From: Candidatus Rokuibacteriota bacterium
Lineage (GTDB): Bacteria > Methylomirabilota > Methylomirabilia > Rokubacteriales > JACPHL01
Length of the DNA stretch: 16,796 bases
Direction of reading: 5' to 3'
NCBI GenBank assembly: GCA_016188625.1
Contig: JACPHL010000020.1
Span: forward strand, 1-16,796
Shown: piece by piece, positions 2,561 through 16,488 of the stretch
Position numbering within the stretch: position 1 is the first letter of the stretch
How the letters are laid out: each line of letters begins with the position of its first letter
The notes under the pieces: generated by a model
The model's input: the letters and a program-made list of their open reading frames with translations, nothing else
The model's database searches: none
What the model was told of the DNA's origin: nothing
Made by a program: the position numbers and the translations under genes

Positions 2561-2590
2561 TTGAATCTCCCCCGGGACGCATTCTATGAT
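2561..2590 (+). promoter_or_regulatory. Sigma70-like promoter of the FG-GAP/molybdoenzyme operon
   Basis: TTGAAT at 2561-2566 and TATGAT at 2585-2590 match 4 of 6 and 5 of 6 consensus positions, with an 18-bp spacer, in an A/T-enriched island within GC-rich DNA. Transcription would start near 2597, leaving a leader of about 80 nt before ATG 2680. No other promoter-like site is evident before the four co-directional genes that end at 7906. Confidence 0.6.
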
Positions 2591-2679
2591 ACAGATGACC
2601 TACCCGGAATGCGAATGGGGTTCTGCGTTCGACCTCGGCCGAGGTACCAGGGGGCCAACCATTGACGAGGGGGGGAACG

Positions 2680-4182
2680 ATGAGTCGGGGGCCGTTCATC
2701 CTGCTGGTCGTCCTCGTGAGCGTCGGGGTGCTGGGCTGCGGCCTGGGGGAGGAGAAGAAGGCGGCGCGGAAAGGAGGCTCAGAGATCCCGCTGTTCGAGG
2801 ACCACTTCGGCCATGCGGTGGCGGCGGCCGGCGATGTCAACAAGGACGGGTTCATGGACGTCATCGTCGGGGCCTGGGGGGCCGACACCACCGGGGAGGA
2901 CGCGGGCGCGGCCTACATCTTCCTCGGCGGGCCCCAGGGGATCAAGGGTCGCGGCGCCAAGGAGGCGGCCATCGCCCTGAAGGGGGAGGCCGCGATCAAC
3001 TACTTCGGGTCCTCCGTGGGCGGGAACTGCGACCTGAACGGCGACGGCTTCGCCGACGTCTTCGTGGGCGCGCCGCTGAACGGCAGGGCGGCGAAGGACG
3101 CGGGGGCGGTCTACATCTACTACGGCGGGCCCCAGGGCCCCTCGCCCACGCCGAGTCACGTCATCGCGGGGATCGGCGAGGGCGATCAGTTCGGGCTCGA
3201 GGTCGCGTGTGGCGGCGATCTCAACAAGGACGGCGTGGACGACCTGGCCGTGGGGGCGCCGCTCGTGGACTTGAATATCCCCGGGGACGTGAGCGGGCCT
3301 GACACCGGCGCCGTCTACCTCTTCTTCGGGTCGAAGAACGGGATCAAGGCGGCGTCGGCGAAGGAGGCGGACCGGACCATCCACGGGATCGGCGCGGGGG
3401 ACTGGTTCGGGAACGCGATCGCCCGCGTCGGGGACGTCAACAAGGACGGGGTGGAGGACCTGCTCGTCGCGGCCTACCGGAACGCCCCCGGCCCGCCGCA
3501 GTTGTTCCGGAACGCCGGGGCCGCGTACGTCTTCTTCGGGGTCCCGAAGGAAGGGGTCAAGCAGGAGCGCGCCAGCAAGGCGGATGCGATCCTGCCGGGC
3601 GCGGCCCGGTGGGACCAGTTCGGGGTCTCCCTCGCCGGGGCGGGGGACGTCAACGGGGATGGCATCCCCGACATCATCGTCGGGGCCGACGAGAACGACC
3701 GGCCCGGCAAGATCAACACCGGGGCCGCGTACGTCTACTACGGGAGCCGCCGGGGGATCGGCGGCCTCGTGGACGCCTACCTCTACGGCGACGCGGGCGG
3801 GGACTACCTCGGGACCTCCGTGGCGGGCGGGGACCTGAACAAGGACGGCTTCGGCGATGTCGTCATCGGGGCCCGCGAGAGCGGGGCCGGCGTCGAGAAG
3901 GGCGGCGCGGTCTTCATCTTTCACGGGGGCAAGGAGGGGATCGAGGGAGGTCCCGCTGCCTCCGCCAAGACGATCCTGACCGGCACCGAGACCGGCAGCC
4001 ACTTCGGCTTCTCAGTGGCCGTGCTCGGAGACGTCAACGGGGACGGGCACGCCGACCTGATCGTCGGGGCGCCGGTCCACGAGAAGGCCGGGGCCGCCTT
4101 CGTCTTCTACGGGTCGAAGGACGGCATCAAGAGCCGCAAGGCCACCGAGGCCGATGTGATCCTGCTCGGCGGCTCGAAGTAG
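2680..4182 (+). CDS. FG-GAP (integrin-alpha-like) seven-blade beta-propeller lipoprotein
   Basis: This is a 500-residue lipoprotein. The signal peptide ends in a lipobox VLGC with Cys20 as the lipid site, so the mature protein is membrane-tethered outside the cytoplasm. It contains seven FG-GAP repeats, each with a calcium-binding loop of the D-x-[ND]-x-DG-x-x-D type (GDVNKDGFMD, CDLNGDGFAD, GDLNKDGVDD, GDVNKDGVED, GDVNGDGIPD, GDLNKDGFGD, GDVNGDGHAD) and a following GAAY/GAVY-[IV]-[FY]-x-G strand. Seven blades fit one complete propeller, as in integrin alpha heads. ATG 2680 has a strong GAGGGGGG ribosome-binding site; the upstream in-frame TTG at 2662 is less likely. Such propellers usually serve binding or adhesion. 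This one is the first gene of the operon, 16 nt before the ferredoxin gene, suggesting a structural or docking role with the redox complex. Confidence 0.9.
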   Translation: MSRGPFILLVVLVSVGVLGCGLGEEKKAARKGGSEIPLFEDHFGHAVAAAGDVNKDGFMDVIVGAWGADTTGEDAGAAYIFLGGPQGIKGRGAKEAAIALKGEAAINYFGSSVGGNCDLNGDGFADVFVGAPLNGRAAKDAGAVYIYYGGPQGPSPTPSHVIAGIGEGDQFGLEVACGGDLNKDGVDDLAVGAPLVDLNIPGDVSGPDTGAVYLFFGSKNGIKAASAKEADRTIHGIGAGDWFGNAIARVGDVNKDGVEDLLVAAYRNAPGPPQLFRNAGAAYVFFGVPKEGVKQERASKADAILPGAARWDQFGVSLAGAGDVNGDGIPDIIVGADENDRPGKINTGAAYVYYGSRRGIGGLVDAYLYGDAGGDYLGTSVAGGDLNKDGFGDVVIGARESGAGVEKGGAVFIFHGGKEGIEGGPAASAKTILTGTETGSHFGFSVAVLGDVNGDGHADLIVGAPVHEKAGAAFVFYGSKDGIKSRKATEADVILLGGSK

Positions 4183-4198
4183 GGCCTGGTCGAGGGGC

Positions 4199-4747
4199 AT
4201 GCCGCAGCTGGCGTTGATGATCGACCTGGCGCGCTGCATCGGGTGCGGCTCCTGTGAGGCGGCGTGCAAGCTGGAGCACCGCCTGGGGCCCGACCAGTTC
4301 CGCACCCGGATCCTCACCCTCCCCCGGCCCGATGCGCCCCGGCGGCTCGAGTTCCTCAAGGCCGTCTGCCAGCAGTGCGAGCGGCCGGCCTGCATGCGGG
4401 CGTGCGGGGCCAACGCCATCACCAAGCGCGAGTCCGACGGCGTCGTGGTGGTGGACCCGGAGCGCTGCACCGGCTGCCAGGAGTGCGTCCGCGCCTGCCC
4501 GTACGGGGTGATGAGCTTCGACCCCCGGTACCAGCACGCCGACAAGTGCACCCTCTGCGTCGAGCGCCGGGAGGTCGGGCTCGGCCCCGCGTGCGCCGCC
4601 GTCTGCCCCGGCTACGCCATCAGCTGGGGCCCGGTGGAGGAGCTCCGCGCCCTGGCCCTGGATCGGTCGGCGCGCGACGCGGACCACTTCGGGCTCTCCC
4701 CCTCGACGATCTACCTCGAGCACGTGCCGGCGAGGGTCCCCGCATGA
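4199..4747 (+). CDS. Four-cluster [4Fe-4S] electron-transfer subunit (DmsB/NrfC/PsrB type)
   Basis: This 182-residue iron-sulfur subunit passes electrons between a molybdopterin catalytic subunit and the membrane. Sixteen cysteines fall in four groups: Cys13/16/19/23 (CIGCGSCEAAC), Cys57/60/65/69, Cys90/93/96/100 (CTGCQECVRAC followed by Pro) and Cys117/120/132/136. This is the ferredoxin layout of the complex iron-sulfur molybdoenzyme family, holding four [4Fe-4S] clusters. There is no signal peptide, so it should sit in the cytoplasm unless exported with a partner. Its stop overlaps the start of the catalytic subunit gene (ATGA at 4744-4747), indicating translational coupling. ATG 4199 has GAGGGG only 1 nt upstream, which is too close to be ideal; ATG 4217, just before IDLARC, is an alternative start. 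Confidence 0.93.
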   Translation: MPQLALMIDLARCIGCGSCEAACKLEHRLGPDQFRTRILTLPRPDAPRRLEFLKAVCQQCERPACMRACGANAITKRESDGVVVVDPERCTGCQECVRACPYGVMSFDPRYQHADKCTLCVERREVGLGPACAAVCPGYAISWGPVEELRALALDRSARDADHFGLSPSTIYLEHVPARVPA

Positions 4748-7128
4748 GGACCCCGACCGGGCCGGGCCAGCGGACCGACGAGGGGGTCCTCAGGGCCGCC
4801 TGGCGGGCGCTCCGCCGGGACCTGACCGGGAGCCGGGTCGAGACCTTCCCCTACTCGGCGCCGCGGGAGGGGGTGCTGGGCCCGGAGGAGATCCGCTCCG
4901 GGTGCAACATCTGCTTCAACAGCTGCACCACCCGCGTCTACCGTCGGGACGGCAAGGCCGTGACCATGACCGGCAACCCCGACGACCCGGTGACCGGCGG
5001 GCACCTCTGCCCGAAGAGCCAGTTCCTCATGCAGATGTACTCCAGCGAGCACCGCCTCCTCTTCCCCCAGCGGCGGAGGGGCCGCCGGGGGGAGGGGAGG
5101 TTCGAGCGGGTGAGCTGGGACGAGGCCCTGGACGAGCTGGCCGCGCGGCTTTCTCTCGTGCGCGACCGCGACGGCCCCGAGGCCCTCGCCGTCTTCACGG
5201 GGAGCCGCTCCGGGCTCCTGGCCCTGGACGGGGCCGCGGAGCTCTTCTGTCAGCTCTGGGGGACCCCCAACCATTCGGGGACCAACCCCTTCTGCGGCAC
5301 CGGGCCGGACCTCGCCTTTCAGATGACCCAGGGGGTCGAGGCGGGCGGCAGCGGCAACATCTTCGCCGAGGACGATCTCTGGGCGGCGGACCTCTACCTC
5401 TTCGTCGGGGACAACATGGCCGAGACCCGGCCGGTCAACTTCGGCCAGCTCAACGACCGCCGCCTCCGGCGGGGGGCGCGGCTTTTGGTCATCGACCCCC
5501 GCGAGACCGCCACCGCGCAGAAGGCCGACGAGTGGATCCCCATCCGTCCGGGCACCGACCTGGCCCTGGCCCTGGCGTGGCTCCACCACCTGTTCGCGCG
5601 CGAGCTGGTGGACCGGGAGTTCCTGGCGAGCTGGGTGGAGGGGCACGAGGCGGTCCGGGAGTTCGTCCTGGCCCGGGGCTACTCCCCGGAGTGGGCGGAG
5701 CCGATCACGGAGATCCCGGCCGCGACGATCCGGCGGCTCGGCGAGGAGTACGCCCGGACGCCGCGGGCGGTGATCTTCGCCAACCGGGGGCTCTCCCAGC
5801 ACTCCAACAGCCTCCAGACCTTCCGGGCCCTGCTCATGGTGGCCGCGGCGACCGGCCACTGGGGGCGGAAGGCCGCCGGCGTGATGGCCATCACCAGCGA
5901 CCTCCCCATCAAGGCCGAGGCCCCGCCCGAGCGCCGCCCCGCCACGCGCCCGCGCATCCGCCGCTCGCCCGCGGGCTGGATCGAGGCGATGCGGAGCGGG
6001 CGCCCGTACCCGATCAAGGCCCTGATCATGACCGGCAACCCCCTCTCCCTCTGGCCCGACCAGGCCGCCCTGCGGGAGGGGCTGGCGAGCCTCGACGCGA
6101 TCGCCCACATCGAGCTGTTCCCGAGCGAATCCTCGGCCTGGGCCGACTATCTGCTCCCCGCCGCGACCGGGATCGAGGTCGGGGAGATCAACCGCTACGC
6201 CGAGGACCGCCGGATCGTCTGGATCGAGAAGGTGATCGACCCCCCGGGGGAGGCCCGGCCCGACTACTGGATCTGGATCGAGCTGGGGAAGCGTCTCGGC
6301 TTCGCCGACGTCCTCAAGGAGGAGCACAAGGACCCCGTCCGGCTCTGGGACGAGGCGATGCGCCGGGACCCCCGGATGCGGGGGCTCTCCGCGGCCCGGC
6401 TTCGGGCGTCACCGACCGGGTGGCTCCGCTGGCCGATCCTCACCGAGGACGGGCCCGGCGCCGAGACCCTCTTCCTGCCGGGGTCGGTCTATCCGGGGGA
6501 TCCCGCGGGGCGGCGCTTCCCCACCCCTTCCGGCAAGCTGGAGCTCTGGACCCCGGCCCTCGAGGAGACCTTCCGGCGCTACGGCCTCTCCGCCCTGCCG
6601 GAGTTCTACACCGAGCCCGAGCAGCTCCTCCCCCTGCCCACGATCGAGTACGTGGCGGGGGACGGCGAGGAAGGGGTGCTCTCGCCGGTGTGGGAGACCC
6701 CCTGCCTGGCGGGGGTGGTGCGGATCGTGGCGGAGCCGCCGGCCGTGGACCGGCAGCGCTACGACATGGAGCTGATCACCGGCCGCCCGCCCACCCCGCA
6801 CTTCCACTCCTGGACCCACTGGCTCTGGCAGGCCCAGGAGCAGTGCGCGGACCTCTTCGCCCACCTCCACCCGGACCGGGCGGCCGCGCTGGGGATCCGG
6901 ACCGGGGACCGCGTGCGGATCGAGAGCCCGCGCGGGGCGATCGAGGCCGTGGCCTGGGTGGCCCCGGGGATCCGCCCCTCGGCCGTGTACGTCCCCCTGG
7001 GGTGGGACGAGCGCCAGCCCTATCACCCCTGGCGGCCGGTGAACTGGCTCATGCCCCGGGAGCCGCGCTGTCCGGTCTCCGACCAGGCCAACTTCAAGAT
7101 GAGCCTGTGCCGGGTGTCCCGGGTCTGA
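4744..7128 (+). CDS. Molybdopterin-bis-PGD oxidoreductase, catalytic subunit (DMSO reductase superfamily)
   Basis: This 794-residue enzyme carries a molybdenum (or tungsten) bis-pterin cofactor and one [4Fe-4S] cluster. The N-terminal cluster motif is Cys54-x2-Cys57-x3-Cys61 with the fourth Cys89 in GHLCPK; Lys91 is the conserved residue that often bridges cluster and pterin. A cofactor-binding stretch follows at about 247-275 (LLVIDPRETATAQKAD, then RPGTD), and the molydopterin-binding C-terminal domain covers about 680-790. Cys184 in NPFCGTGPD is a candidate molybdenum ligand, by analogy with periplasmic nitrate and polysulfide reductases; this is inference. I see no twin-arginine signal, so the enzyme should be cytoplasmic. 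It is close in style to the polysulfide/thiosulfate reductase and formate dehydrogenase groups, but I cannot name a substrate. It forms an operon with the ferredoxin and membrane subunits, the latter starting 7 nt after its stop. Confidence 0.92.
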   Translation: MRTPTGPGQRTDEGVLRAAWRALRRDLTGSRVETFPYSAPREGVLGPEEIRSGCNICFNSCTTRVYRRDGKAVTMTGNPDDPVTGGHLCPKSQFLMQMYSSEHRLLFPQRRRGRRGEGRFERVSWDEALDELAARLSLVRDRDGPEALAVFTGSRSGLLALDGAAELFCQLWGTPNHSGTNPFCGTGPDLAFQMTQGVEAGGSGNIFAEDDLWAADLYLFVGDNMAETRPVNFGQLNDRRLRRGARLLVIDPRETATAQKADEWIPIRPGTDLALALAWLHHLFARELVDREFLASWVEGHEAVREFVLARGYSPEWAEPITEIPAATIRRLGEEYARTPRAVIFANRGLSQHSNSLQTFRALLMVAAATGHWGRKAAGVMAITSDLPIKAEAPPERRPATRPRIRRSPAGWIEAMRSGRPYPIKALIMTGNPLSLWPDQAALREGLASLDAIAHIELFPSESSAWADYLLPAATGIEVGEINRYAEDRRIVWIEKVIDPPGEARPDYWIWIELGKRLGFADVLKEEHKDPVRLWDEAMRRDPRMRGLSAARLRASPTGWLRWPILTEDGPGAETLFLPGSVYPGDPAGRRFPTPSGKLELWTPALEETFRRYGLSALPEFYTEPEQLLPLPTIEYVAGDGEEGVLSPVWETPCLAGVVRIVAEPPAVDRQRYDMELITGRPPTPHFHSWTHWLWQAQEQCADLFAHLHPDRAAALGIRTGDRVRIESPRGAIEAVAWVAPGIRPSAVYVPLGWDERQPYHPWRPVNWLMPREPRCPVSDQANFKMSLCRVSRV

Positions 7129-7135
7129 CCCCGGA

Positions 7136-7906
7136 ATGCCCCGGCCCCTCCTCGCGCTGGTCCTGGCCGCCCTGGTCGGGGGGACCGTCTACGCCGCCGC
7201 CACCTCGCGCCTCTTCCCCTACGACGCCCGCCCCGGCGCCCCGGTGGGGCAGACCCTGGGTGTGATCGCGGGCTGCCTCATGATCGCCAGCCTCCTCTAC
7301 CTCCCCGCGAAGCGGGGCGAACCCCTCGCGACCCCGAACCGCCGCCTGGTCCTCATCCATGTGGTCCTGGGCTCGGCGGGCGCCGCCGTCGCCCTGGCCC
7401 ACTCCCGGTTCGTGGTCACCCAGCCGCCGATCCTGGTCCTCCTCGCCTTCCTCGGCCTGCTGGGGACCGGGCTCTACGGCCGGGTGGTCGCGAGCCAGCG
7501 GATGGGCCCGACCTTCGGGCGGGGCGGGAACCCGTTCCAGCCCGGAACCGGGATGCCCGAGGAGCTGCGGGCCTTCATCGCCAGAAAGCGCGCCCTCCTG
7601 GCCCGGCTCGACCCCGACGCCCGGGAGGCCACCTTCACCCTCGGCCTCGGCCACTGGGCCCGGCACCCCCTGAGCTCGGGCCGCTACTACGCGTTGAGCC
7701 TGAGGGAGCGGCAACGCATGCGGGCGCTGGCGGCGGCCGGGTACCAGGAGCGCATGGGGGTCCTTGAGCGGTTCTGGCGGGTGGGGCACCTCGTGCTCGC
7801 CTGGTTCGCGATCCTGGGGCTCCTCGCCCACGTGGTGACCACGCTCTTCTTCGCCGAGTGGGCGGCGGGCGGGCGGGAGATCTACTGGTGGCACATTCGG
7901 AGGTGA
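7136..7906 (+). CDS. Five-helix membrane subunit, probable di-heme b cytochrome
   Basis: This is a 256-residue membrane protein with helices at about 4-22, 38-56, 70-88, 96-114 and 216-238. Positive charges place the N-terminus and a long loop (about 116-212, rich in Arg) in the cytoplasm and the C-terminus outside. Two helices carry histidines exactly 14 positions apart: His75 and His89 on helix 3, His218 and His232 on helix 5. H-x13-H pairs on two parallel helices are the ligand pattern for two stacked b hemes in bc1 cytochrome b, and nearly so in ferric reductase/NOX proteins. The likely role is the membrane anchor and quinone-linked electron conduit for the molybdoenzyme encoded just upstream, with the cytoplasmic loop as docking site. 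It is not an NrfD/PsrC-type anchor (8-9 helices) and not obviously NarI. The ATG lies 7 nt after the catalytic gene. The heme role is inferred from spacing alone. Confidence 0.8.
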   Translation: MPRPLLALVLAALVGGTVYAAATSRLFPYDARPGAPVGQTLGVIAGCLMIASLLYLPAKRGEPLATPNRRLVLIHVVLGSAGAAVALAHSRFVVTQPPILVLLAFLGLLGTGLYGRVVASQRMGPTFGRGGNPFQPGTGMPEELRAFIARKRALLARLDPDAREATFTLGLGHWARHPLSSGRYYALSLRERQRMRALAAAGYQERMGVLERFWRVGHLVLAWFAILGLLAHVVTTLFFAEWAAGGREIYWWHIRR

Positions 7907-9801: not shown

Positions 9802-11520
9802 ATGCGGGGGCAGATCGCGCTTCTGCTGCTGCTCTTCTTCTCCCTCTCGTGCTCGCGGGCCCGGGAGGATGGCCCCACGGGTTCCCCCCTCTCCATCCGG
9901 GTCGTGGCGCGGGGGGAGATCGAGGTCACCTGGACCCCCCCTCGGCCCGCGGGGGAGGCCGAGGGCCAGGTCCCCGACGTCCGGTACTCCACCGCGCCCT
10001 TGACCGCCGAGACCTGGGGTCAGGCCCCGGCGGTCACGCCCTGGCTCCCCGTCACCGTCGAGGGCGCCCCTAAGCTGAGGAGCGTGCTCCCGGGGCTCGC
10101 GCCCGTCCTCCACTACGTGGCCGCGGCGTCCCCCGGGACGGGGCCCGGGATCTCCCCGGTCGCCACCGTGCTCCCCCTGCGGGAGACCGTCCTCCACGGC
10201 AGGCTGGGCGGGTACTACTTCGGTCACGCCGTGGCCCTGGTCGGCGACGTCAACGGGGACGGCTACGGCGATCTCCTCGTGGGCGCCCCGTGGAGCGACG
10301 AGGGGATGGAGGCGCGGCGGCCTCGCTACGCGCGGTGGGCGCGGGCCCTCCTGCGCCGCGTCGGGATCCCCCTGCACGGGGCCAGGGTGGGGGCGGCGTA
10401 TCTCTACCCGGGAGGCGCCGGGGGTCCGGCCCTGCACCCTGCCTGGACGCTGCTGGGGAAGGCCGAGGGGGCCGATCTGGGGGGCGCGGTGGCGGGGGTC
10501 GGGGACCTGAACGGCGACGGCTACGCCGACTTCGCGGTCGGGATTCCGGGCCACGACACCGAGCTCCGGAACGAGGGCGCCGTGGCCGTCTACTTCGGGC
10601 GGCCGGGGCCGCTTCCCTCCGAGCCGGACCTCTTCCTGGTGGGCCGGTTCCGGGACGAGTCGTTCGGCAGCGCCATCACCGGCGGGGACTTCAACGGGGA
10701 CGGCTACGCCGACCTGGTGATCGGGGCCCCGGGCTCCTACCTGGGCGAGGTCAACGCCGGGGCGGTCTTCGTCTTCTACGGGGGGCCCACCGGGCCCTCA
10801 TCGCGGCCGGGCTCGGTCCTGCTCGGCAAGACCTTCGACGGCCTCTTCGGCAGCGCCGTGGCGGCCGTGGGGGATGTCAACGGCGACGGGTACGAAGACC
10901 TCCTGGTGGGGGCCTATGAGGGGGTGGCGGACCCGAGGGCGACGGGCGCGGCCTACCTCTACTACGGCGGGCCGCAGGGGCTGGCCCCTGCCCCCGCGCT
11001 CACGCTCCGGGGGCACGCCTGGGGCGACCAGTTCGGGGCCGCGCTGGCGGCGCTGGGCGACGTGGACGGTGACGGCTTCGCGGACTTCGCCGTGGGGGCG
11101 CCGAAGAACGACGAGGGGGGCGAGGACGCGGGGGCGGTGTCTGTCTACCACGGCGGGCCCCGCGGACCCCTGCCGGAGCCGAGGACGATCCTGATCGGGC
11201 CGGGTCCGGGGAGCCAGTTCGGGGCGGCCCTGACGGGGGTCGGTGACCTGGACGGTGACGGCCACGCCGGCCTCCTCGTCGGCGCCTTCGCCGCGGGCGG
11301 GGCGGAGGAGGGGGCGGTCTTCCTCTATCGGGGCGGCGCGGCGGGGATCGAGCGCCGGCCCGCCCTGACGCTTCACGGCCGCCATCCCGGCGCCCATCTC
11401 GGGCGGGGCCTCGCCGGGGGCGGAGATCTCGACGGCGACGGGCGCCCCGACCTCGCCGTCGGGGCCGAGGGGGACCCCTCGCGCGGCCCCCAGGCCGGGG
11501 CCGTCTTCCTCCGCTACTGA
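9802..11520 (+). CDS. Second FG-GAP beta-propeller lipoprotein, with N-terminal Fn3-like domain
   Basis: This is a 572-residue lipoprotein (signal LLLLLFFSLSC, lipid site Cys17). Residues about 28-125 look like a fibronectin type III-type beta-sandwich (IEVTWTPP near the start, SVLPGLAPVLHYVAAAS later). Seven FG-GAP blades follow, with loops DVNGDGYGD, DLNGDGYAD, DFNGDGYAD, DVNGDGYED, DVDGDGFAD, DLDGDGHAG and DLDGDGRPD. The first blade has an Arg-rich insertion (RRPRYARWARALLRR region), and the sixth loop has Gly in place of its last Asp. It is related to the protein at 2680-4182 but clearly diverged, so it is a paralog rather than a recent duplicate. ATG 9802 follows GAGGGAAGG at a long 12-nt distance; the open frame extends further upstream, but the lipoprotein signal fixes this start. 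It is divergent from the thioredoxin gene and convergent with the ABC operon. Confidence 0.88.
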   Translation: MRGQIALLLLLFFSLSCSRAREDGPTGSPLSIRVVARGEIEVTWTPPRPAGEAEGQVPDVRYSTAPLTAETWGQAPAVTPWLPVTVEGAPKLRSVLPGLAPVLHYVAAASPGTGPGISPVATVLPLRETVLHGRLGGYYFGHAVALVGDVNGDGYGDLLVGAPWSDEGMEARRPRYARWARALLRRVGIPLHGARVGAAYLYPGGAGGPALHPAWTLLGKAEGADLGGAVAGVGDLNGDGYADFAVGIPGHDTELRNEGAVAVYFGRPGPLPSEPDLFLVGRFRDESFGSAITGGDFNGDGYADLVIGAPGSYLGEVNAGAVFVFYGGPTGPSSRPGSVLLGKTFDGLFGSAVAAVGDVNGDGYEDLLVGAYEGVADPRATGAAYLYYGGPQGLAPAPALTLRGHAWGDQFGAALAALGDVDGDGFADFAVGAPKNDEGGEDAGAVSVYHGGPRGPLPEPRTILIGPGPGSQFGAALTGVGDLDGDGHAGLLVGAFAAGGAEEGAVFLYRGGAAGIERRPALTLHGRHPGAHLGRGLAGGGDLDGDGRPDLAVGAEGDPSRGPQAGAVFLRY

Positions 11521-11548: not shown

Positions 11549-12568
11549 TCAGTACTTCCAGAGGGCGAACCGCTTGTCCACCTGGCGAAGGCCGAGGTCC
11601 ATGAGGAAGGCCGCGGCGCAGATCGTCATGAGTCCCGCCATCATGACGGGGGTGTCCAGCCAGGTCTGCGCGATCAGGATCAGCCAGCCCAGCCCGGCCT
11701 GGGGCAGGGTCGCGGCGTTCTCGGCGGCCAGGAGGACGATCCAGCCGATCCCGAGGCCGATGCGGGTCCCGGTGAGGATCTCCGGGGCGGCCGAGGGGAG
11801 GGTCACCTGCCACATCACGTCCCAGCGGCTCCCGCCGAAGGTGAGCACCGTCTCGACCTGGGCCGGTTCGATGCGCTGGACCGCGGCGAGGGTGTTGATG
11901 AGGATCGGGAAGAAGATCCCCATCCAGGTGATGAAGATGGCGGAGGCGTTCCCGAGCCCGAACCAGAGGATCGAGAGCGGGAGCCAGGCCGGGGCGGGGA
12001 TCACCCGGAGGAGGTGGATCACGGGCTCGAGGAAGTGGGCGCACCAGGGGAGGTGCCCCATGAGGATCCCGAGGGGGACGGCCGAGGCGAACGCGAGGAG
12101 GAAGGAGAGGGCGAGCCGCCAGAGGGTCGCCAGGGCGTGGGCCTGGAGCCACCCCAGCTGCCAGTAGACGGCCAGCTTGGTCAGGACGAGGGTGGGGGGT
12201 GGGAGCAGGACGGGGTTCACCAGGCCCAGCGCCGAGACCGCTTCCCATCCCATGAGCACGATGCCGCCCGAGATCGTCCCCCGGACGAGGGGGAGCGGCA
12301 CCCGCCGGGGGAGGAGGCGGCGGGCCCCCGAGAGGGCGGCCATGGCGAGGAGGGTCGTCCCTATCAGGGCCGTGGGGTCCAGGGTGCGCTCCGGGTGGAA
12401 GTACCGGTACATGGGGGGGTGCGGACCGGAGGGGGCGGTCCGTTGCAGCCGCTCCTGGGGCGCGGCGGGCCGGAGCGGCGCGGTCAGCAGGAGGGGCAGG
12501 ACCAGCAGCGCGAGACCGATGGGGGCGAGGCGGCGGAACGGGGGAGCAGGCTTCAGGGCCGGGGACAC
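11549..12568 (-). CDS. ABC importer permease, nitrate/sulfonate/taurine type, copy 1
   Basis: This is a 339-residue inner-membrane permease of the BPD_transp_1 family. The ATPase-contacting EAA loop is at about 237-263 (VETVLTFGGSRWDVMWQVTLPS region), and the core has the family hallmarks PAWLPLSILWFGLG (193-206) and FFPILINT (219-226). Ahead of the core are about 95 extra residues: a first hydrophobic segment (14-30), a Pro-rich extracytoplasmic stretch and another helix (about 66-80). It is the last gene of the operon, 22 nt after the ATPase stop. The GTG at 12568 is chosen because it directly precedes the first hydrophobic segment; the ribosome-binding site is poor. It aligns over its whole length with the permease at 13419-14477, including the N-terminal extension. 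The substrate is unknown. Confidence 0.9.
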   Translation of the reverse strand: MSPALKPAPPFRRLAPIGLALLVLPLLLTAPLRPAAPQERLQRTAPSGPHPPMYRYFHPERTLDPTALIGTTLLAMAALSGARRLLPRRVPLPLVRGTISGGIVLMGWEAVSALGLVNPVLLPPPTLVLTKLAVYWQLGWLQAHALATLWRLALSFLLAFASAVPLGILMGHLPWCAHFLEPVIHLLRVIPAPAWLPLSILWFGLGNASAIFITWMGIFFPILINTLAAVQRIEPAQVETVLTFGGSRWDVMWQVTLPSAAPEILTGTRIGLGIGWIVLLAAENAATLPQAGLGWLILIAQTWLDTPVMMAGLMTICAAAFLMDLGLRQVDKRFALWKY

Positions 12569-12590
12569 GCACCGCCCGATCTGGGGTGGT

Positions 12591-13415
12591 CTAGTCCCCC
12601 AGGAGGTCGGCCACCTTCCGGCGGGCCTCGACGAAGGCGGAGTCGGTGCGGCTCCGGGGGTGGGACAGGGTGACCGGGACCACCCCTTTGATCCGTCCGG
12701 GCCGGGGGTGCATGATCACGATCCGGGTCGCGAGGTAGGTGGCCTCCTCGATGTCGTGGGTGACGAAGACGATGGTCTGGCGGGTCTCCTGCCAGATCCG
12801 GATCAGGTGATCCTGGAGGGCGTTGCGGGTGATGGCGTCCAGCGCCCCGAAGGGCTCGTCCATGAGGAGGACCTCCGGCCGGTTGATCAGGGCCCGGCCC
12901 ACGGCGACCCGCTGGAGCATGCCCCCCGAGAGGGTCGCGGGGTACGCCGTGTTGAACCCGTTGAGCTGGATCAGCTCGATGATCCTCCGCACCCGCTCCT
13001 CGCGCTCGGCCCGGGGGACCCCCTGGAGCTTGGGGCCCAGCTCGATGTTCTTCTCCACCGTGAGCCAGGGGAAGACGGCCCGCTCGCTCTGGAAGACCAT
13101 CGCCCGCTGGGGATCGGGGTCCTTGATCTCCTGGTCCTTGAAGGCGACCCGCCCGCTGGTGGGGCGCTCCAGCCCCGCGAAGATCCGGAGCAGGGTGCTC
13201 TTCCCGCACCCGCTCGGGCCGAGCAGGGCCACCAGCTCGTTCGGGTAGACCTCGAGGGAGATGTCGTCCAGGGCGAGCAGCTCGTAGATGCTCCTCCGCC
13301 TCCAGAGGTTCAGGCTGAACTGCTTCTTCGAGGAGACCACGGTCGTCCCCGCCGGGTCGGTGTAGACGTAGAAGATCTTCCGGACGTTGTCAGCGCGGAG
13401 TACGCTCTGGGCCAT
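12591..13415 (-). CDS. ABC importer ATPase, NrtD/SsuB/TauB type
   Basis: This is a 274-residue ATPase that powers the flanking permeases. Motifs are complete: Walker A GPSGCGKST (66-74), Q-loop Gln109 in VFQSE, signature LSGGMLQR (162-169), Walker B VLLMDEPFGALD (182-193, catalytic Glu187) and switch His220 in FVTHD. Between the first strand and ALDDISLEV there is an insertion of about 20 residues (near 22-43, Ser/Lys/Arg-rich) not usual in SsuB/TauB. The gene starts 3 nt after the stop of the first permease, with GAGGTGGTGA as ribosome-binding site inside that gene's end, so expression is coupled. One ATPase gene serves two different permease genes, so a heteromeric importer with an ATPase homodimer is the simple reading. 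Confidence 0.93.
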   Translation of the reverse strand: MAQSVLRADNVRKIFYVYTDPAGTTVVSSKKQFSLNLWRRRSIYELLALDDISLEVYPNELVALLGPSGCGKSTLLRIFAGLERPTSGRVAFKDQEIKDPDPQRAMVFQSERAVFPWLTVEKNIELGPKLQGVPRAEREERVRRIIELIQLNGFNTAYPATLSGGMLQRVAVGRALINRPEVLLMDEPFGALDAITRNALQDHLIRIWQETRQTIVFVTHDIEEATYLATRIVIMHPRPGRIKGVVPVTLSHPRSRTDSAFVEARRKVADLLGD

Positions 13416-13418
13416 AGA

Positions 13419-14477
13419 TCACCACCTCACGATGGCCGCTTCGCCCTTCCGAAGCAGGACGTCGAAGATGATCCCGAGGGCCGAGATGAGGACCATCCCC
13501 CCCAGCACGGTGGGGGTGTCCAGGAGCGTGCGGGCGTCGTCGATCATCCACCCCAGCCCGGCGTCCACGGCGACCAGCTCGGCCGTGACGAGGCAGATCC
13601 AGCCGATCCCGAATCCCACCCGCACCCCCGTCACGATGGTGGGAAAGGCCGAGGGGAGCATAACCCGCCGGAACACGTCCAGCCGGTTCCCCCCGAGGTT
13701 CAGGATCGACTCCACGTGGATCTGCTGCGTGTTCTTCACGCCCCGGATCGTGTTCAGCAGGATGGGGAAGAAGGCCCCCAGCCAGATGATGTAGATCGAG
13801 GGCGGGTCCCCGATCCCGAACCAGAGGATGGCGAGGGGGAGCCAGGCCGGCGGGGGCACCACCCGGATCAGGTTGAAGAGGGGATCGATGTAGTCGGCGA
13901 AGCGCCGGAAGTTGGCGATGAGGAACCCGAGCGGGATGCCGGTGCCGATCGCGATGAGGAAGGCCGTCAGGAGCCGCCGGACGCTGTAGTAGACGTGGAT
14001 CTGGATGTAGCCCCGCTCCCACTGGGCGATGAGCTTCGCGAAGACCGCGGTCGGGCCGGGCAGGAGCACGCTGGTCACCAACCCCAGGTAGGTGATCAGC
14101 TCCCACCCGATGAGGATGACCCCGATGGAGGTCAGGGCGCGGACCAGGGCCACGTTGAAGACCTTGGGGAACCAGGCCCCTAATCCGTTCAGCAGGACGG
14201 TCCACACGGCGATCCCGACCATGAAGAAGCGCGAATCCAGCTTCCCCTCGACCTCGACGTAGCCGCCGATGGGGCGATCCCAGGTGGCGATGGGCTTGGC
14301 CTCCCCGGGTCTCCCCATCTGCTTGAAGAACTCTCCTGTCTCCTGCTGCGGTTTGAAGAACTCCTCCAGGTGTTGGGCGGCGGAGGCAACCGGCGGATCG
14401 GCGATCCCGACCACACTCCAGAGAACCATGCCAAGGACGCTCAGGGCCAACAGCGCCGGACGACTGACCCACTTCAT
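13419..14477 (-). CDS. ABC importer permease, nitrate/sulfonate/taurine type, copy 2
   Basis: This is a 352-residue permease and the first gene of the operon. The EAA loop is at about 254-277 (HVESILNLGGNRLDVFRRV region), and PPAWLPLAILWFGIG (209-223) and FFPILLNTIRG match the paralog at 11549-12568. The N-terminus has a signal-like hydrophobic segment (8-27, ending near ASA), then about 50 charged extracytoplasmic residues with two EFFK repeats, then an extra helix (84-103) before the six-helix core. I chose ATG 14477 rather than upstream in-frame codons because GGAGGAAGGGA lies just before it and the promoter at 14568-14596 gives a leader of about 84 nt. No substrate-binding protein gene follows or precedes, although this importer class needs one, so it must be encoded elsewhere or supplied by another system. 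Confidence 0.9.
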   Translation of the reverse strand: MKWVSRPALLALSVLGMVLWSVVGIADPPVASAAQHLEEFFKPQQETGEFFKQMGRPGEAKPIATWDRPIGGYVEVEGKLDSRFFMVGIAVWTVLLNGLGAWFPKVFNVALVRALTSIGVILIGWELITYLGLVTSVLLPGPTAVFAKLIAQWERGYIQIHVYYSVRRLLTAFLIAIGTGIPLGFLIANFRRFADYIDPLFNLIRVVPPPAWLPLAILWFGIGDPPSIYIIWLGAFFPILLNTIRGVKNTQQIHVESILNLGGNRLDVFRRVMLPSAFPTIVTGVRVGFGIGWICLVTAELVAVDAGLGWMIDDARTLLDTPTVLGGMVLISALGIIFDVLLRKGEAAIVRW

Positions 14478-14567
14478 TGGTCCCTTCCTCCGCCCGTCGA
14501 TGGGAGCCAGCCACCGGCTCCCGACGGGGTCCAGGGGACTCGGGAGACGGGAGATGTACGGGAACAT

Positions 14568-14650: not shown

Positions 14651-15781
14651 CTAGGCCGAATCGGCGGGCCCGGCCGCGCCCAGGGGTCGGCGGGCCCGGG
14701 CACGGCCGGGATCGTAGAAGGGAAGCGCCGCGACGGCCGCCGGACGCGCTTGACCCTCCACGACGACCCCCGCGGCCTGCCCGACTTCCGCCGCCCCCCG
14801 GGCCGCATAGCCGAGGGCCAACCCGCGGCGAAACACGGGCGAGTAGCAGGCGCTGGTCACCTCGCCGATCTGCGCCCGGGCGGGGTCGCGGAGGATCGGG
14901 GCGCCCCGGTCGGGGACCAACCCGTCGGGGAGGGCGACCCCGATGAGCTCGAGGGGGACCCCGCGCTCCCGGATGGTCAGGAGGGCCGCCCGCCCGCGGA
15001 ACTCGCCCTTCTCAAACCGGACCAACCGTTCCAGCCCCGCGTCCAGGGGGGTCCGGGTCCGATCGAAGTCGCGGCCGGCCAGGAGGTAGCCCGCCTCGAT
15101 GCGCAGGGTGTCCAGCGCGAGCGCCCCGCAGGGGGTCAGCCCCTCCTCCCGTCCCGCCTCCAGCAGCCGCCCCCAGAGCCGGCCGGCACTCGCCTTGGCG
15201 ATCGCCAGCTCGTAGCCGAGCTCGCCGGTGTAGCCGATCCGGGAGAGCAGGACGGGGATCCCCTCGATCGCGGTCTCCGTCGAGCGGTAGTACGGGAGGA
15301 ACCGATCCCCGACCCCGAGCCGGGCGAGGATCTCCGGAGCCCGCGGACCCTGCAGGGCGAGGACCGCGACCTCCTCGGAGCGATCGGTCACCGTGACCGG
15401 CGCGGGCCCGCCCAGGGACCGGAGCTCGTCGGCCGTGGTCCGGAGGCTCGTGTAGACGGTGAAATGCTCGGCACCCAGCCGGTACACGGTGCAATCGTTC
15501 ACGAACCCGCCGGCCTCGTCGCAGATCGGGGAGTAGAGGATCTGACCGGGACCGAGGCGGGAGGCGTCGTGGGTGATCAGGCGCTGGATGAGGGCGAGGG
15601 CGCCGGGGCCCTCGATGGCGTACTGGCCCATGAAGCTCAGGTCGAACAGACCGGCCCGCTCCCTGACGGCCAGGTGTTCCCGGGTCGGGTCGGTGAAGGC
15701 TCGAGGGTAGAGGTGACCCATGAAGGGCCCGAGGGTGGGCCGCGAGGCCGCGTAGGCGGGGAGGAGCGGCGTGCCCTTCAC
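14651..15781 (-). CDS. GcvT-family folate-dependent aminomethyltransferase/demethylase-like protein
   Basis: This 376-residue protein has the GcvT fold. Landmarks are RAGLFDLSFMGQYAIEGPGA (42-61), the folate-site pair Asn95-Asp96 (GGFVNDCTVYRL), LALQGPRAPEIL (141-152), IGYTGELGYEL (182-192) and TLRIEAGYLLAGRDF (225-239), with a C-terminal barrel ending in LPFYDPGR. The family moves a one-carbon unit from an aminomethyl or methyl substrate to tetrahydrofolate. True T-protein usually has Asp-Asp at the first site and an Asn in the VVNA segment; here these read Asn-Asp and VYTS, and no other glycine-cleavage genes are nearby. A demethylase for a methylated amine or sulfur compound, or a GcvT-like tetrahydrofolate-binding protein, is therefore as likely as glycine cleavage. 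The start is GTG 15781, 52 nt after the upstream gene. Confidence 0.85.
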   Translation of the reverse strand: MKGTPLLPAYAASRPTLGPFMGHLYPRAFTDPTREHLAVRERAGLFDLSFMGQYAIEGPGALALIQRLITHDASRLGPGQILYSPICDEAGGFVNDCTVYRLGAEHFTVYTSLRTTADELRSLGGPAPVTVTDRSEEVAVLALQGPRAPEILARLGVGDRFLPYYRSTETAIEGIPVLLSRIGYTGELGYELAIAKASAGRLWGRLLEAGREEGLTPCGALALDTLRIEAGYLLAGRDFDRTRTPLDAGLERLVRFEKGEFRGRAALLTIRERGVPLELIGVALPDGLVPDRGAPILRDPARAQIGEVTSACYSPVFRRGLALGYAARGAAEVGQAAGVVVEGQARPAAVAALPFYDPGRARARRPLGAAGPADSA

Positions 15782-15833
15782 GCCGGATCCGAGGGGGGGA
15801 GCGGAGGAGCGGCGGGGGTGGGGTCGCTCGGCC

Positions 15834-16466
15834 TCAAGGAGGGCTGACGCCCGGGGCCGCCGCCTCGGTCAGCGCTTCGAGGCGGTGCCACTCGATCGGC
15901 GCGTGGGCCATCTGGGCCATCGCCGTCAGGCAGGCGTGGGGGCAGGCGCAGAGGCGCTCGGCCGGGGACACGCCCAGGGTCTCGGACTCGAAGAACCCGA
16001 AGAACCTGGTTCGGTCCTCCACGGCCTGGCCGATGCAGATGCGGACGGGCCGGCACGTCTGGGCGATCTCCCGCCCGTGCTCGAGTAGCCGCTGGCGGAA
16101 GGCCGCCTCCGCCCCGGGCCGGCTCTGAAAGAGCCCGAGCATGGTGACGCCCCTGCTGGGGGTGTCGAAGGCCTCCTCCAGGAGGACATCCGAGGTGTAG
16201 ACGCGGGAGGGGCGGGCCTGGAGCTCGACCATGCTCGCGATCCTCCGCGCCCAGTGCTTGGACTGGAGGGACCGGTCCCGGGCCTCCAGGTTCCGCCAGG
16301 CGGCCCAGGTGCAGAACTGGGCAGGCTCGTCGACCAACTCGAAGGCCCGGGCATCTTGAACCTCGGGGAATTGGCGCAGCCAGGTCACCAGTCCGATCAG
16401 CAGCTCCCGGAAGTCGCGCTCGCGGCCCGGGAGGACCTCATACAACCGGAGGATAGGGATCAGCAT
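15834..16466 (-). CDS. Tandem ferredoxin-like-barrel (ABM-like) protein with C-terminal Cys/His cluster
   Basis: This 210-residue protein seems built of two similar halves, about 1-95 and 107-197. The first reads like an antibiotic-biosynthesis-monooxygenase (dimeric alpha/beta barrel) domain: PILRLYEVLPGRERDFRELL, then FCTWAAWRNLEARD. The second begins VTMLGLFQSRPGAEAAFRQRLL and ends in a similar FFGFFESE strand. Folding and relation to ABM are inferred from pattern only, not a firm family match. The second half contains CACPHAC (Cys173, Cys175, His177, Cys179), a possible metal or heme site, plus Cys138 and Cys144. There is no signal peptide. ATG 16466 is preferred over ATG 16487 because the promoter at 16489-16515 would start transcription near 16482, downstream of the latter; neither has a clear ribosome-binding site. 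It precedes the GcvT-like gene by 52 nt on the same strand and probably shares its transcript. Confidence 0.75.
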   Translation of the reverse strand: MLIPILRLYEVLPGRERDFRELLIGLVTWLRQFPEVQDARAFELVDEPAQFCTWAAWRNLEARDRSLQSKHWARRIASMVELQARPSRVYTSDVLLEEAFDTPSRGVTMLGLFQSRPGAEAAFRQRLLEHGREIAQTCRPVRICIGQAVEDRTRFFGFFESETLGVSPAERLCACPHACLTAMAQMAHAPIEWHRLEALTEAAAPGVSPP

Positions 16467-16488
16467 GGGGACCCGGCCACGCCTCATA

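Follow-up and report, generated by a model that had tools for sequence, protein, structure and literature searches.

The genes at positions 4199-7906 of the window (the whole stretch of DNA analysed here, one complete 16.8-kb contig from a genome bin of 2.6 Mb, 344 contigs and 84% completeness) code for a ferredoxin, a molybdopterin catalytic subunit and a membrane anchor, which on balance we regard as a cytoplasm-facing, membrane-bound complex most likely oxidising sulfite to sulfate. The architecture of this complex (subunits, cofactors and membrane side) was read from sequence and conservation; its substrate and the direction of the reaction were deduced from genome context. According to the proposed mechanism, sulfite would be oxidised to sulfate at the molybdopterin centre on the cytoplasmic side, and the electrons would pass from this centre to its [4Fe-4S] cluster, then through the four ferredoxin clusters and the di-haem cytochrome-b anchor to the quinone pool. 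The role of the complex would be to clear toxic cytoplasmic sulfite originating from sulfonate breakdown (Xsc) or from reverse Dsr.

Gene organisation and the conserved unit

Four genes follow one another on the + strand downstream of a sigma-70-like promoter, TTGAAT-18-TATGAT (2561..2590, +), which was called on 9/12 consensus matches and on no other basis; 2 promoter-like sites were observed in the region compared to 0.1 expected from shuffled sequence. The first gene (2680..4182) codes for a seven-bladed FG-GAP propeller lipoprotein (seven Pfam FG-GAP matches, lipobox LG|C), the second (4199..4747) for a four-[4Fe-4S] ferredoxin akin to the electron-transfer subunits NrfC, DmsB and TtrB (Pfam, NCBIfam, 16 Cys), the third (4744..7128) for a catalytic subunit of the MopB/DMSO-reductase superfamily (Pfam Molybdopterin, Molydop_binding and Molybdop_Fe4S4) and the fourth (7136..7906) for a membrane anchor with five transmembrane (TM) helices, probably a di-haem cytochrome b according to an alignment of 30 sequences. 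The coordinates confirm the gene order and the spacings of 16, -4 and 7 nt reported in the initial annotation, and the promoter that it placed ahead of the FG-GAP gene corresponds to the consensus match at 2561-2590. A search for intrinsic terminators returned none between the four genes; its single terminator-like match (7831-7843) falls within the coding sequence of the anchor, at a level no higher than expected by chance. Given the tight spacing and the common promoter-like site, co-transcription of the four genes in the window organism is likely. Divergent from the operon, the segment 1494-2479 (- strand) contains a cytochrome c gene and a gene coding for a 150-aa secreted protein that matches no known family.

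Using the catalytic subunit as a query against approximately 85,000 species genomes, we recovered 36 related loci (43-59% identity). Their comparison revealed that the conserved unit is composed of the ferredoxin, the molybdopterin subunit and the anchor, without the FG-GAP protein. Ferredoxin and catalytic subunit are fused into one polypeptide in 32/34 testable loci, the catalytic domain following the ferredoxin domain within the single chain; the exceptions are L043, which is frameshift-like and belongs to a draft genome, and the Chloroflexi locus L016. In every proteobacterial locus whose contig extends far enough, the anchor gene lies directly upstream of the fusion gene (at approximately -3 to +22 nt, judged from hit positions). 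The ferredoxin is recognisable wherever the contig extends far enough upstream, except on the Chloroflexi contig L015, and the module is kept across Alpha-, Beta- and Gammaproteobacteria. In the Chloroflexi bin, window-type catalytic genes are present as three pieces, each on its own contig (L015, L016 and L076), and no anchor gene was found beside any of them.

The FG-GAP gene was not detected at any of the 36 related loci (554 kb searched by tblastn and with a profile built from the window's own repeats), including the Chloroflexi relative, which is the closest sequence to the window and in which a divergent ABC transporter occupies the place of the FG-GAP gene. Searches of about 94 other genomes of the phylum yielded no close homologue of the FG-GAP or catalytic protein, and no anchor homologue was found among 58 order-mates. 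The window contig could be foreign to its genome bin; a search for GcvT-like proteins across the phylum returned ordinary GcvT at about 40% identity, which is not informative on contig binning. A second FG-GAP lipoprotein gene (9802-11520, + strand, lipobox LS|C) is located near unrelated genes.

The adjacency of the FG-GAP gene to the enzyme genes is thus real and was seen in the window genome only, which is the outcome of the survey of four-family adjacency suggested by the initial annotation and the result that this annotation had named as refuting its proposal. The latter was that the complex has four subunits and that one of them, the FG-GAP lipoprotein, is obligatory and acts as an external scaffold or sensor. 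Despite the shared strand, the 16-nt gap, the single promoter-like site and the presence of both FG-GAP genes of the genome bin (2680-4182 and 9802-11520) on the window contig, such a scaffold is very improbable, as 0/36 related loci encode an FG-GAP protein, the second FG-GAP gene sits among unrelated genes and only short external loops are predicted for the anchor (approximately 16 residues for loop 1-2 and 7 for loop 3-4), which would offer little docking surface for a propeller. The survey of the 36 loci led us to reject the propeller as a subunit. A lineage-specific accessory, co-transcribed with the enzyme genes and involved for example in surface attachment or metal binding with no enzyme contact, would agree with the operon-like spacing and common promoter-like site and would be compatible with the sulfite reading of the other three genes, but is unlikely for an arrangement present in one genome only. 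We conclude that the FG-GAP lipoprotein is probably an incidental local neighbour and not a part of the complex.

Cofactors and membrane anchor

The ferredoxin (Pfam Fer4_11 and others; nearest NCBIfam relatives TtrB/DmsB) is approximately 47-67% identical to the ferredoxin domain of its relatives, and its 16 Cys residues are all invariant in 30 aligned family sequences. The catalytic subunit carries Cys54/57/61/89 for a [4Fe-4S] cluster as well as Cys184 at the Mo-ligand position, all five being invariant among 36 clade sequences, and Cys184 is the putative Mo ligand. Inspection of the N-termini of both proteins revealed no export signal, Tat signals included, in agreement with the initial annotation. 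All features of a complex iron-sulfur molybdoenzyme were found, namely MopB domains, an N-terminal [4Fe-4S] motif, a partner ferredoxin and a membrane anchor. The window catalytic clade is separate in the tree (support 100/99-100); the best solved relative of the subunit is the Thermus thiosulfate/polysulfide reductase 2vpw, followed by formate dehydrogenases.

Alignment of the 30 anchor sequences revealed five invariant histidines, H75, H89, H173, H218 and H232, among which the pairs H75/H89 and H218/H232 are each 14 residues apart within one helix. A 14-residue spacing is the classical bis-haem-b pattern, as in cytochrome b of bc1 complexes. The "di-heme-type" anchor, a guess in the initial annotation, is thereby backed by four invariant histidines in two pairs, and judging from its sequence the anchor likely binds two b haems. 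The topology predicted from the K+R count assigns the N-terminus, loop 2-3 and a large Arg-rich loop (117-208) to the cytoplasmic side of the membrane, where the signal-less ferredoxin and catalytic subunit would also be. The earlier description of a cytoplasm-facing, probably quinone-coupled molybdoenzyme is supported for the ferredoxin, the catalytic subunit and the haem-b anchor. Pfam matches of the anchor were marginal (DUF4405 and Ni_hydr_CYTB); none of the 30 anchors matched NrfD or DmsC in Pfam, the window anchor did not match Pfam NarI, it belongs to no NCBIfam family, and its sequence profile retrieved nothing from the PDB. A structural model of the anchor (pLDDT 79) gave no Foldseek match at E<0.5 and matched cytochrome b561/Dcytb at Z 7.7-8.2, below the trusted level for helical bundles, and VIA-align ranked talin bundles above cytochrome b561, so that the fold comparison was not taken as proof.

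Genome context and candidate substrates

In the degradation of sulfonates such as taurine, Xsc frees sulfite from sulfoacetaldehyde; both Xsc and reverse Dsr release sulfite in the cytoplasm. The gene xsc (TIGR03457) was found in 27/35 carrier genomes compared to 7/143 class-mates of one carrier (Fisher P ~1e-18, the carriers being related to one another and not phylogenetically independent), as well as in all nine searched proteobacterial carriers that do not belong to the large cluster of sulfur oxidisers (G095-G100, G102, G105 and G106). In four genomes, those of Spiribacter, Halomonas, Vreelandella and a betaproteobacterium, xsc and the module are 4-16 kb apart; in Halomonas elongata, which yielded no SoeA, the distance is 10.5 kb. 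On the betaproteobacterial contig the module is followed by genes coding for an NMT1-type ABC binding protein, an ATPase and a permease, then by pta and xsc. TauE/SafE family exporters are encoded at 9 loci, and YeiH-type exporters in Halomonas and Pseudohalocynthiibacter. The reverse-type dsrA gene scored above cut-off in 19/35 carrier genomes, and 32 of the 33 proteobacterial carriers possess xsc or dsrA, one of them by a dsrA fragment. Strain PBA (L048) was dropped as a sulfonate degrader, the corresponding paper naming its partner as the main degrader.

The known cytoplasmic sulfite-oxidising system is unevenly distributed among the carriers. SoeA is present in 18/33 proteobacterial carriers and missing from the other 15, nine of which are dsrA-positive, many of these genomes being incomplete bins in which single absences are weak evidence, so that the weight lies on the overall pattern; the SoeA-less carriers include three halomonad isolate genomes, all with xsc. 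Full conservation of soeABC among dsr-positive sulfur oxidisers has been reported (PMC6397845), and an independent report did not find SoeABC in Halomonas titanicae (PMC9237845).

In the window, a taurine/sulfonate/nitrate-type ABC transporter comprising two permeases and one ATPase (11549..14567, - strand; family matches) lies 3.6 kb downstream of the module, and transporters of this type also occur near the module at L016 and L018. Neither xsc, dsrA above cut-off nor SoeA was found in the window's genome bin (84% complete) or in the Chloroflexi relative, and the transporter provides a hint, the only local one in the window bin, of a link to sulfite. Genes coding for a GcvT-family protein and an ABM-domain protein (14651-16487, - strand) adjoin the transporter genes.

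Enrichment and proximity of xsc, sulfite exporters, co-occurrence with dsrA and the SoeA gaps in carriers together point to sulfite as the substrate. The reading has to be weighed against a complex acting on another substrate (polysulfide or thiosulfate, arsenite or thioarsenate, formate, or an organosulfur intermediate), which may run as a quinol-dependent reductase, with a shared sulfur lifestyle explaining the link to sulfite producers. The catalytic subunit falls outside the SoeA clade and has 2vpw, then the formate dehydrogenases, as its best solved relatives; the nearest Streptomyces outgroup member lies within an ars island; and an uncharacterised Soe-like enzyme was proposed to act on arsenite in Thioalkalivibrio (PMC6620896). 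Furthermore, about half of the carriers already possess SoeA (18/33), so that a second function is possible, and the absence of xsc, dsrA and SoeA from the window bin and the Chloroflexi relative, together with the absence of an anchor beside the Chloroflexi genes, also weighs against sulfite. However, the association with xsc, sulfite exporters and dsrA speaks against another substrate, and no ars or formate genes were recognised among the recurring neighbour clusters. We therefore consider a different substrate rather unlikely, though a serious contender, and retain sulfite oxidation as the preferred activity.

Comparison with known systems

PsrABC/PhsABC-type polysulfide and thiosulfate reductases resemble the window complex in that they include its best solved sequence relative (2vpw), have a Mo centre ligated by Cys, as is predicted for the window subunit, and are anchored, in the case of PhsC, by a b-type cytochrome. 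The catalytic subunits of PsrABC/PhsABC are exported by Tat, unlike the window subunit, which lacks a Tat signal. These catalytic subunits are described as periplasmic (PMC10100899). MopB proteins of the Nostoc pC052_A and Streptomyces NBC_01708 plasmids (34-35% and 31-32% identity, respectively) form the outgroup closest to the catalytic clade; in contrast to the window protein, they carry an RR (Tat) export signal and have no adjoining ferredoxin or anchor gene. The Streptomyces plasmid gene (L014:5797-8322), located inside an arsenic resistance island, possibly codes for an arsenic-related enzyme. In NarGHI, a five-helix di-haem b anchor carries Mo and FeS subunits that face the cytoplasm, a layout that resembles the window complex; however, the similarity of the catalytic subunits is marginal (40 bits), and the window anchor lacks a match to Pfam NarI.

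SoeABC, known from Allochromatium vinosum and Aquifex aeolicus, is composed like the window complex of a Mo subunit with one [4Fe-4S] cluster, a four-cluster ferredoxin and a membrane anchor, and like window-type complexes it lacks a Tat signal, faces the cytoplasm and is encoded beside xsc or in dsr-positive organisms. For comparison we used four SoeA-like proteins, labelled by their neighbours (SoeB, DmsC-type SoeC, xsc and an ackA-like gene) or by similarity and with no validated reference among them. They form their own clade (100/100), joined to the window clade at 88/82 only, and score 113-150 bits against the window subunit, whereas other MopB proteins reach 186. The two types of catalytic subunit thus belong to separate clades, and the ferredoxin-catalytic fusion of proteobacterial window-type complexes is likewise unlike SoeABC. 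The SoeABC anchor is of the haem-free, 8-10-helix NrfD/DmsC type, while that of the window is a five-helix protein, probably a di-haem cytochrome b. Spiribacter SoeC matches DmsC at 5e-25; since SoeC is nearer to DmsC, a search of the carrier genomes for NrfD (PF03916) was uninformative. In Spiribacter salilacus, the genes for SoeABC (986-aa SoeA, SoeB and DmsC-type SoeC) adjoin xsc, and about 7 kb past xsc the same contig carries the cytochrome-b module; a stretch of approximately 16 kb contains all three (L041, L081). Tritonibacter carries two SoeA genes in addition to the module. Both the tree and the type of anchor rule out plain membership in SoeABC.

In the open-access literature covered by our search, no account of a complex of this kind was found. 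Whether the module represents a second type of cytoplasmic sulfite:quinone oxidoreductase, of separate evolutionary origin and using a di-haem cytochrome b, present in halomonads, in symbiotic and free-living sulfur oxidisers and in two non-proteobacterial phyla, and explaining sulfite disposal in dsr- or xsc-containing organisms devoid of SoeABC, is in our estimate evenly balanced. Surveys score genomes that release cytoplasmic sulfite but lack SoeABC as incomplete; if the proposal is true, this gap would be filled in the taurine-using halomonads and in marine sulfur oxidisers, among them a worm symbiont. The complex of the window may thus resemble SoeABC in function while belonging to a separate lineage, in which case the link from sulfite oxidation to quinone would run through a haem-b anchor and differ from that made by the NrfD/DmsC-type anchor of SoeABC, making the energetics of the two directly comparable.
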